The notes beneath the pieces were generated by a model that was given only the letters and a program-made list of their open reading frames with translations, searched no databases and had not been told where the DNA came from. Below, one piece after another: positions 21,697 to 23,980 of a stretch of DNA of 48,790 bases. Source of the stretch: Akkermansiaceae bacterium (GTDB taxonomy: Bacteria > Verrucomicrobiota > Verrucomicrobiia > Verrucomicrobiales > Akkermansiaceae). The translations under genes and the position numbers were made by a program. The stretch's first letter is position 1, and every line of letters begins with the position of its first letter. Where the stretch lies: NCBI GenBank assembly GCA_947462535.1, contig CANHPN010000011.1:1-48790 (forward strand). The letters are read 5' to 3'.

Positions 21697-21865
21697 CGGC
21701 CCCGCCGATGAAGGTGAGGCCGGCGAGCAATCCCGCCTCGCCCGCCTCGCCCAGCTCGCGCAGAATGTCGTGATGCAGCAGTTCCTTCTCCACCACCGGG
21801 CGCAGGGTGGATAGATCGGCGCGCGATTTCAGCGCCTCGTCCACTAACTGGTCAAACAAGCTCAC
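21653..21865 (-). pseudogene. Truncated AbiEii/AbiGii-type toxin
   Basis: From a GTG at 21863-21865, which overlaps the AbiEi gene end, the frame reads SLFDQLVDEALKSRADLSTL, RPVVEKELLHHDILREL and LLAGLTFIGG. These are the N-terminal helix and the start of the nucleotidyltransferase core of AbiEii toxins. Intact members continue for about 200 residues past FIGG with the GS and DxD catalytic motifs. Here homology stops near 21700, and the frame then runs antisense into the phosphatase gene and ends. It is therefore catalytically dead. A 9-bp unit CGCCTCGCC is duplicated inside the frame and adds GEA to the usual sequence. Confidence 0.72.
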
Positions 21866-22373
21866 GCGCCGCCTCCTCGTCCACGAGTTCCATGTCGCGC
21901 AGCGCTTGTCGCACCGAAGCGCGCCACAAATGTCGCTCGGCATCATAGGTCAGCTCGCCGCCAACGTCGTCCGGCTGCTGCGCCGTATGGACGAACTCGA
22001 TGTGGCCATAATCGCCGCAATCCACCACATGGCTGCGCCCGGAAGTCATGAGGCTGATCCAGTTCATCGGCACCTGCGAGATTACTCCCGCATCGCTCAA
22101 CACCGTTTCCAAGCTGATGCAGTTGAACTCGTCGGCCCGCAACCGCGCCGCCGCGTGAAACAGCAGGTTTCCAGACGGATGATCCGGCACCGGATAAAAA
22201 TAGATTCCCCGGCAGACCCGCTTCAGCAGGCCCGCCTTCGTCGCCCGTGACAAAAGCACCGCCAATTGCCCGCACCCCGGCACCGCCGCCGCCAGGTCCG
22301 ACGGCGCGAACACGCAATGCTCCGGACCCGCCAGCGAGCGGAGCGTCTCGGAAAGTTGCTTGAGTGGCTGCAT
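21852..22373 (-). CDS. AbiEi-family antitoxin (type IV toxin-antitoxin)
   Basis: 173 residues: an N-terminal winged-helix segment (FAPSDLAAAV, then LAVLLSRATKAGLLKRVCRGIYFY) characteristic of AbiEi, followed by the C-terminal antitoxin region (LISLETVLSD-like, MTSGRSHVVDCGDYG). AbiEi antitoxins repress their own operon and block an AbiEii nucleotidyltransferase toxin without direct binding. The neighbouring toxin is truncated, so this antitoxin is an orphan. It may survive through its DNA-binding function or be in the process of loss. Upstream DNA (22374-22471) is AT-rich, and its TTACAAAACATTGCAAAAG stretch is a candidate operator. Confidence 0.85.
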   Translation of the reverse strand: MQPLKQLSETLRSLAGPEHCVFAPSDLAAAVPGCGQLAVLLSRATKAGLLKRVCRGIYFYPVPDHPSGNLLFHAAARLRADEFNCISLETVLSDAGVISQVPMNWISLMTSGRSHVVDCGDYGHIEFVHTAQQPDDVGGELTYDAERHLWRASVRQALRDMELVDEEAARELV

Positions 22374-22471: not shown

Positions 22472-23980
22472 TCATTCCTTCTTCCACTGCAACGCCGTGC
22501 CCGCAGGCATCAGGCGTGCGGCGCGGGCGATGTCCCAGTTGCTGAGGCGCAGTCCGCCGATGCCTTCTAACTTCATCCGCGCGGGGATGCCGGTGCCGTG
22601 CAATCCGTAGGGCAGGGGATCGGTGCTGCCGGACTTGGCGAGGTTGATCCAGATGACACCGACAGGGTTGTTAGGACCGGGTGCGAGGAATTGGTCCTTT
22701 TCCAGCGGAGGGTCGATCACGGGTTCCGGACCAGCCACGAAATCGCCGGCCGGCGCGGGCTTGGGTTTCGGAATTTCCCGGGGTTCGCGTCTGGTGGCCA
22801 GGCGCGGCTGTGGGATGGCGTCGAGGACGGTCCATTTGTCGCGGCCACGAAGCCCCGGGCGCGCGGTGGTCAGCGGCATGACGGCGATGAGTTTTCCCTC
22901 ACACGAGATTTCCAGCCGGGACAATAACACCACTGCGGCGGTGACGGGCTTCTGCGGATCGGCGGCCGGTTGCAGCGGGGCGGCGAGCGCTTTTTCGATT
23001 TCAAACGGAACGACGTTAGGCACTTGGAACCCGGTGCCGACGGCGGGCGTCGCTTTCAGTTGGGGATTGATGTGATGCAGAAACACCTCGTCGCAGTGGA
23101 AACGTTCGGCGACGAATTCCCACGCGCTCGTGTAGCCGAGGAAGTCCGCGGCGACCAGCTCGTCGATCGTGACCGGCGGTGGCAGTGGCGCGGGCGCGGC
23201 GGTCTTTTTCTTGGAGGATGACTTGCCGTTCCGGGAGGCCACCGGCTCGTCCTTGGGTGGCTTGATGAATTTAAAATCCTCCGCGCGCAGGGTATAGGTC
23301 GTGTAAGGCTGCGTCACCGTGGCCTCGGCTTTCGCTTTCAACAGGCAAGGACTCGCGGCGTCCGGGTGCGTGCGCTGATAGATCTCGCTGGCTTTCAGGA
23401 ACGTCGCGCCGGACTTGCCGTCGATCATGCCCGGAGAAAACATTTCCCTGTCGAGGAAGACCTGTAGCCGCACGTTATCGAGTTCCATCCTGGCCTCGAA
23501 GTCGGCATCGAAACCGAGGTCCGTCACGCCTGCTGGTGGGTTGGGTTCCGCTTTCGGTTCCGGTGGCGGCGGGATCAGCGTGAGCAAGTGCTCGTGCGTG
23601 GGGATGCGCAGTGTCTGGCCGATCTGAATGCGGTCGTCCTGCAGGTCGTTGAACTGCTTCAACTGCGCGGCAGTCATGTCGAACTTCCTCGCGATTTTGA
23701 TGATGGCGTCGCCCTTTTTCACGTCGTAAGTCTCCGGCCGCGGCGCAACGGGCTTGCCTGGTTCGATCGCGCCGGGCGGCTTGGGCAGCAGCGCCTCCGG
23801 CAGCGGCATGCCCCACTCCGTTTTCTCCGGCGGCGCGACCCACCATTTCCAATTCACGGCAAGCTCGAGTCCCGGCTCGATTTTGGACGAGGGTTTCACC
23901 ACGGTTTGGGCAAACAAACTTCCGCAGGTGAAACCGGCGATCGCGATTGATGATAGAGGACCTACAAATGAGAGTCGCAT
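22472..23980 (-). CDS. LysM protein with degenerate L,D-transpeptidase (YkuD-like) domain lacking the catalytic Cys
   Basis: 502 residues. A signal peptide (MRLSFVGPLSSIAIAGFTCG) precedes a LysM domain at about 84-130 (YDVKKGDAIIKIARKFDMTA to IGQTLRIP). A peptidoglycan-binding-like middle part follows (about 165-300), with a Lys/Pro-rich linker, and then a YkuD-like domain at about 365-490. The domain keeps His461 in YGLHGTG and the Arg478 region. Where active enzymes have SHGCIR, this protein has GIGGLR: the catalytic Cys position is Gly476 and the Ser/His positions are Gly473 and Ile474. It should not catalyse 3-3 crosslinking by the known mechanism. A structural or binding role at the cell wall is inferred. 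Confidence 0.82.
   Translation of the reverse strand: MRLSFVGPLSSIAIAGFTCGSLFAQTVVKPSSKIEPGLELAVNWKWWVAPPEKTEWGMPLPEALLPKPPGAIEPGKPVAPRPETYDVKKGDAIIKIARKFDMTAAQLKQFNDLQDDRIQIGQTLRIPTHEHLLTLIPPPPEPKAEPNPPAGVTDLGFDADFEARMELDNVRLQVFLDREMFSPGMIDGKSGATFLKASEIYQRTHPDAASPCLLKAKAEATVTQPYTTYTLRAEDFKFIKPPKDEPVASRNGKSSSKKKTAAPAPLPPPVTIDELVAADFLGYTSAWEFVAERFHCDEVFLHHINPQLKATPAVGTGFQVPNVVPFEIEKALAAPLQPAADPQKPVTAAVVLLSRLEISCEGKLIAVMPLTTARPGLRGRDKWTVLDAIPQPRLATRREPREIPKPKPAPAGDFVAGPEPVIDPPLEKDQFLAPGPNNPVGVIWINLAKSGSTDPLPYGLHGTGIPARMKLEGIGGLRLSNWDIARAARLMPAGTALQWKKE

Follow-up and report, generated by a model that had tools for sequence, protein, structure and literature searches.

YkuD-type L,D-transpeptidases (PF03734) are the closest described relatives of the protein reported here, and the nearest with solved structures are 8da2 from Acinetobacter baumannii and Bacillus subtilis YkuD (1y7m, 4a1i, 2mtz). 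Regulation of L,D-transpeptidases is poorly known, and a strongly conserved dead member of the group would offer a natural way into the question, with directly testable predictions. A YkuD domain without the catalytic cysteine occurs in LdtPae1 of Pseudomonas aeruginosa, where it is the second of two domains and reads QLGKIR at the motif; in the passages on that domain, the authors suggest that it perhaps binds peptidoglycan (PMC10434034). A similar logic, the dead wall-enzyme domain, is found in EnvC, NlpD, ActS, and Csd2. According to the sections that treat them, ActS joins a LysM domain to a degenerate LytM domain and activates amidases without cutting peptidoglycan (PMC8360153), Csd2 is a degenerate LytM partner of Csd1 (PMC5053510), and NlpD also carries a LysM domain (PMC8360153, PMC5053510). 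All four have the LytM (M23) fold, whereas the family described below has the YkuD fold. Neither a stand-alone YkuD pseudoenzyme family nor a paper joining YkuD with the word pseudoenzyme was found in the open full-text literature, which omits most subscription papers, and the matching passages of a 2025 review of L,D-transpeptidases do not mention inactive members (PMC12729407).

The window, the whole stretch of DNA that was analyzed, covers 48,790 nucleotides of an Akkermansiaceae contig (CANHPN010000011.1). The gene of interest is an open reading frame with an ATG start and no internal stops, and it is laid out as follows.

22472–23980, minus strand: gene for a YkuD-fold protein, very probably a pseudoenzyme, of 502 amino acids (stop included in the coordinates; from the reading frame and orthologues)
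23906–23980, minus strand: probable signal peptide, about residues 1–25 (by eye; AQ-type cleavage, lipobox not clear)
23810–23878, minus strand: clade-specific N-terminal motif EPGLExAVxWKWxVxP...WG, residues 35–57 (orthologue alignment)
23600–23728, minus strand: LysM domain, residues 85–127 (Pfam, E 2.7e-13)
23255–23491, minus strand: PG_binding_1-like module, residues ~164–242 (profile match to active paralogues)
23009–23140, minus strand: middle module, residues ~281–324 (common to active paralogues and 8da2)
22478–22957, minus strand: YkuD-fold domain, very probably a pseudoenzyme domain, residues 342–501 (phmmer, profile, Foldseek, and structure alignments)
22547–22600, minus strand: putative pseudo-active site H461-G-T ... 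I-G-G476-L-R478 (sequence and orthologue alignment)
22553–22555, minus strand: codon GGA for Gly476, which replaces the nucleophile Cys (codon read and alignment)

The protein is probably exported, judging from its own N-terminus and those of ten orthologues inspected by eye. Its LysM domain scores 50 bits against a curated Pfam cut-off of 20.9 and was found in all 56 aligned orthologues. The PG_binding_1-like module takes its name from an active paralogue (L074) that has Pfam PG_binding_1, a domain matched directly in only 2 of the 56 orthologues, and the middle module looks LysM-like by eye only. Both modules also lie upstream of the YkuD domain in 8da2. The same order of PG_binding_1-like module, middle module, and YkuD domain is found in active paralogues from the same phylum (for example L007, from the same genome), which align from residue 164 to the end. 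Compared with the aligned part of 8da2, the window protein has the LysM domain and the N-terminal Trp motif in addition; W44 and W46 of the latter occur in 56 of 56 aligned orthologues, or in 78 and 77 of 82 when partial rows are counted. The chain holds a single YkuD-like stretch, at its C-terminus. LdtPae1 differs both in having its Cys-less domain in tandem with an active one and in having Lys for the Cys; the window protein belongs to a stand-alone family with Gly. No M23 (LytM) match was found in the window protein with Pfam at E up to 1, and an NCBIfam match to ActS was confined to the LysM stretch (18.7 bits against a cut-off of 375).

By predicted fold and by homology, the C-terminal domain is a member of the YkuD superfamily. 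Pfam sees only the LysM domain in the window protein and returned no YkuD match at E up to 1, although 12 of 56 orthologues match at E ≤ 0.01. In phmmer searches of PDB sequences, residues 428–494 align to the L,D-transpeptidase 8da2 and residues 435–497 to B. subtilis YkuD 2mtz; the family profile matches these at E 5.7e-11 and 1.1e-08, respectively, and aligns with the active paralogues over 289 columns (hhalign, probability 100, E 3.6e-55). An AlphaFold2 model built with 56 orthologues has a mean pLDDT of 84.9 over the whole protein and of 92 and 97 in the pair of blocks containing the motif (471–490). Its top PDB match in Foldseek is 8da2 (E 8.7e-13), followed by YkuD 4a1i (E 2.2e-08). Structure alignment of the whole model with VIA-align gave Z 19.4 to 8da2 (rmsd 8.9 Å, 251 residues aligned over 162–501) and Z 13.7 to 4a1i (2.9 Å, 113 aligned). 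A model of the domain alone (338–502, pLDDT 85.1) is best matched by YkuD 1y7m (Z 15.0, 2.7 Å, 113 aligned), and its best 50 structure matches bear titles that name an L,D-transpeptidase, YkuD, or YcbB in nearly every case; 1zat, 7o21, and 4xxt are titled otherwise. The possibility that the domain is not YkuD, raised in the first-pass annotation, therefore fails, as phmmer, profile, and AlphaFold2 all give YkuD. The result is also a warning for annotation, as plain sequence comparison would assign the window protein to the L,D-transpeptidases.

Orthologous reading frames scoring at least 230 bits were collected (n = 152). Leaving out two partial ones (L046 and an N-terminal fragment of L087) and merging repeats gave 82 distinct rows, which include the window copy and five rows without most of the LysM stretch. 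Of 40 lower-scoring frames, 36 were called active paralogues by a regular expression that requires the Cys, so their Cys is present by construction; 27 of these entered the joint alignment. The remaining four comprise two LysM-like frames (L005, L038) and gene fragments from carriers (L088, L162).

Gly at the nucleophile position is a conserved trait of the clade. The first-pass annotation had placed Gly476 (GIGGLR) at the position of the YkuD nucleophile, and the family profile bears it out, with Gly475-Gly476 falling on the G-C of S-H-G-C-I-R in 8da2 and of S-K-G-C-I-R in B. subtilis YkuD. The motif sequence in the window protein is LHGTGIPARMKLEGIGGLRLSNWD. Among the 82 orthologues, all with complete domains and the window copy included, residue 476 is Gly in 81, Trp in one, and Cys in none, so the S-x-G-C-x-R nucleophile of active enzymes is absent throughout. 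The 81 Gly residues are encoded by GGC (39), GGA (21), GGG (14), and GGT (7); as all four codons are used, the residue has been maintained through codon drift. Pairwise identity of the YkuD domain has a median of 55% and a minimum of 34%, and 24 of 159 domain sites, Gly476 among them, are identical in all 82 rows or all but one. The window's own genome serves as a control that was not selected on the motif: each of its nine Pfam-YkuD proteins carries the Cys at the motif position (assigned by eye in L006, L008, and L009, which have divergent motifs). The lone orthologue with Trp at the nucleophile position, L057, reads IGWLR.

Other parts of the active site are kept. The window family resembles 8da2 and YkuD in its fold and in the motifs GPN.PvG..W, HGT, and R..N.D, and differs in the Gly and in a six-residue insertion before HGT, where a PLPY stretch is conserved (P455 in 70, L456 in 76, P457 in 76, and Y458 in 67 of 82). 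The HGT His of active L,D-transpeptidases is retained (H461, 81 of 82), as are G462 (82), T463 (74), G475 (82), R478 (81), N481 (82), and D483 (77). The 56-row alignment agrees, with H461, G476, and R478 each in at least 90% of rows and G475 invariant. An intact gene with a LysM domain, the HGT, and the following Arg, as first described, is thus confirmed by the reading frame, Pfam, and the orthologue alignment. SHGCIR had been taken as the reference motif. The replacement of its Cys by Gly stands; its His does not serve as a mark of activity, since that position is Lys in B. subtilis YkuD and Ser, Ala, or His in active paralogues, and the His that is kept is the one in HGT.

Several motifs of the active enzymes have been given up. 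In the joint alignment (56 pseudoenzyme and 27 active rows), T-P-G of P-x-T-P-G, R and D of W-R-Y-D, the I-G-R before the motif, and the Cys are invariant in the active set and changed in the other. The active paralogues keep S-x-G-C-[IMVY]-R, and their invariant I-G-R, R-x-D, and T-P-G are not so in the window family. Residues conserved in at least 95% of the pseudoenzyme rows and not in the active ones include A348, R374, L377, G379, P492, and W499. In alignment, the lost motifs and the family's own conserved residues look like a new function on an old fold rather than decay. Invariant sites in the 56-row alignment are denser in the middle module (12 of 54) than in the YkuD domain (21 of 159), so the main function need not reside in the latter.

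The protein is very probably a pseudoenzyme. This part of the first-pass annotation, a retained pseudoenzyme, stands on Gly in 81 of 82 orthologues, purifying selection, a single branch in the tree, and the YkuD fold; its suggested roles are matters of likelihood. We infer from the sequence that the protein cannot perform L,D-transpeptidation, and it likely binds peptidoglycan because of its LysM, PG_binding_1-like, and middle modules. With moderate confidence, we read it as a probably exported, multi-module wall-binding pseudoenzyme whose likeliest role is that of a non-catalytic adaptor or regulator. The LysM domain and the two modules common to active relatives would anchor it on peptidoglycan. 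The YkuD domain, lacking the Cys, would form no acyl-enzyme and carry out no L,D-transpeptidation, though it retains its fold as well as the His of HGT and the Arg of the motif, and it could bind stem peptides or a partner enzyme. Such binding might position, activate, or restrain wall enzymes, as the dead LytM domains of EnvC, NlpD, and ActS do for amidases. A more specific proposal is tentative: that this is a dedicated stand-alone family of L,D-transpeptidase pseudoenzymes, Gly-fixed in one class, which activates wall crosslinking or targets it without catalysis of its own. With the same reserve, a factor of this kind might correspond, on the YkuD fold, to the activators with dead LytM domains.

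A conserved operon partner was looked for beside the gene and not found: across 71 non-redundant loci, no family of neighbors is shared by more than 10, and none recurs across lineages. In the window, the gene upstream lies on the same strand at a distance of 110 bp and encodes a xylose-isomerase-like TIM barrel, with YbeY beyond it. Downstream, the gene at 21852–22373 (minus strand) has weak similarity to AbiEi_4 and DUF6088 (5.8e-5 and 3e-5, both below the Pfam cut-offs) and is possibly, by this similarity, an orphan AbiEi-like antitoxin or regulator. None of these three recurs beside orthologues in the 71 loci, and for two flanking frames of the window a relative turned up in a single other locus each (L047 and L154). 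A promoter scan found 0 sites against 0.5 in shuffles; terminator-like sites numbered 4 against 2.4 (sd 1.6).

Elsewhere the surroundings differ by lineage. Loci of the Chthoniobacterales type show two neighbors. Upstream, at ~52 bp, lies a gene for a PolX-like DNA polymerase (9 of 71 loci; Pfam on L062 and L064); downstream, at ~53 bp, lies one for a polysaccharide deacetylase (7 of 71; Pfam on L062 and L083). The deacetylase loci are L062, L063, L065, L066, L082, L083, and L088, six of which also have the PolX-like gene. In nine loci of the Verrucomicrobiaceae type, genes for a GT2 glycosyltransferase, a protein with DUF3313, and an active L,D-transpeptidase lie within ~3 kb (Pfam on L074, with DUF3313 also on L085). 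That active YkuD enzyme (SHGCMR) has a Pro-rich C-terminal tail; its gene lies on the opposite strand, ~1.8 kb past that of the pseudoenzyme, and the GT2 and DUF3313 genes separate the two (L074, L077, L078, L079, L080, L085, L086, L089, and L091). The PolX-like, deacetylase, and GT2/DUF3313/L,D-transpeptidase neighbors are absent from the window locus. Genomes with the gene have 6–20 YkuD matches (51 of 67 known carriers) and those without it 7–17 (27 genomes), numbers not clearly different by eye; these are counted regardless of the Cys, and the pseudoenzyme itself may be part of some totals. One of the active YkuD enzymes may be a partner.

The want of a genomic partner in 71 loci, together with the LysM and PG_binding_1-like modules, also suits a purely wall-binding or structural protein in which the YkuD domain is a stem-peptide recognition module, a decoy or protector, with no enzyme partner; the authors of LdtPae1 propose the same for its Cys-less second domain, in the passages concerned (PMC10434034). 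We consider this rather unlikely, however, as the loss of T-P-G, R-x-D, and I-G-R and the gain of new conserved residues hint at a ligand or partner beyond the ordinary stem.

An enzyme that uses another nucleophile or runs another reaction in the YkuD pocket would explain why H461, G462, T463, R478, N481, and D483 are kept under strong selection. Candidate nucleophiles were sought among the 82 rows, and a replacement Cys was rejected. Cys reaches at least 15% at two positions only, C19 in the signal peptide and C296 in the middle module, outside the YkuD domain; the latter, the only such Cys in the mature protein, is Cys in 63 rows, Ala in 16, Val in one, and a gap in two. The first-pass annotation's own caveat, another Cys in the nucleophile role, falls away with this. 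Residue 473 is no universal nucleophile either, because it is Ser in 51 rows and Gly in 31. Retained catalysis is thus quite improbable, and the non-catalytic adaptor or regulator remains the preferred reading.

Selection on the gene is purifying. Estimates of dN/dS were made from 63 non-independent pairs of 39 sequences that are 80–97% identical, and the medians are 0.260 for the N-terminal part, 0.065 for LysM, 0.151 for the linker, 0.054 for the PG_binding_1-like module, 0.060 for the middle module, 0.104 for the YkuD domain, and 0.067 for its core (430–500). The highest values for single pairs are 0.68 in the N-terminal part, 0.21 in YkuD, and 0.46 in the core. Nine Verrucomicrobiaceae-type genomes carry both genes and give 36 pairs, with a median pN/pS of 0.069/0.445 in the pseudoenzyme YkuD domain and 0.029/0.376 in the active one; constraint on the pseudoenzyme domain is weaker, about half that on the neighboring active enzyme, yet strong. 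A decaying or erroneous gene, through point mutation, sequencing error, or pseudogene formation, has next to no probability and is refuted at the level of the family: the missing Pfam YkuD match, three orthologues whose genes are broken across two frames, and one TGA inside the matches of two genomes (G111 and G122) in the own-family search, gone in the later profile search, are set against orthologues 39–91% identical to the window protein that also lack the Cys, dN/dS far below 1, and 53 of 53 order-level carrier genomes with no stop within the matched stretch (a few matches being partial). The split genes (L087, L088, and L162) reflect decay or sequencing error.

The gene is class-wide yet patchy in its distribution. 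Profile searches scored the best three to four candidates per genome, and at most seven in the first search, which makes a recorded presence more reliable than a recorded absence. In the window's own family, 12 of 195 genomes, its own among them, have a strong match (E ≤ 1e-100), and this patchiness suggests that the gene is dispensable in many lineages. The class search found it in 24 of 384 genomes, with scores of at least 306 bits where paralogues reach no more than 157; there is one exception to the gap, the 239-bit second piece of a split gene (G292). The order search (E ≤ 1e-60) and the phylum search, with one match per genome, found it in 53 of 386 and 9 of 387 genomes. All carriers found in these searches fall in four families (f1, f2, f22, and f32) of the window's class, and named records belong to Akkermansiaceae, Verrucomicrobiaceae, Chthoniobacter/Spartobacteria, and Terrimicrobiaceae. 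Haloferula sp. BvORR071 (L048) and Luteolibacter marinus NBU1238 (L051) are among the strains with the gene.

A quick maximum-likelihood tree was constructed from 92 rows, of which 62 are pseudoenzymes thinned at 85% identity (one identical to the window protein) and 30 are active. One long branch (SH-aLRT 100) parts the two sets, and for this split, in a tree whose root is not inferred, one change of state suffices. Because the active family is widespread, we infer that the Cys was lost rather than gained. Three rows from the window's genus (L019, L020, and L021) branch near Verrucomicrobiaceae rows and apart from other Akkermansiaceae, with a joining support of 80, a placement that may reflect horizontal transfer.
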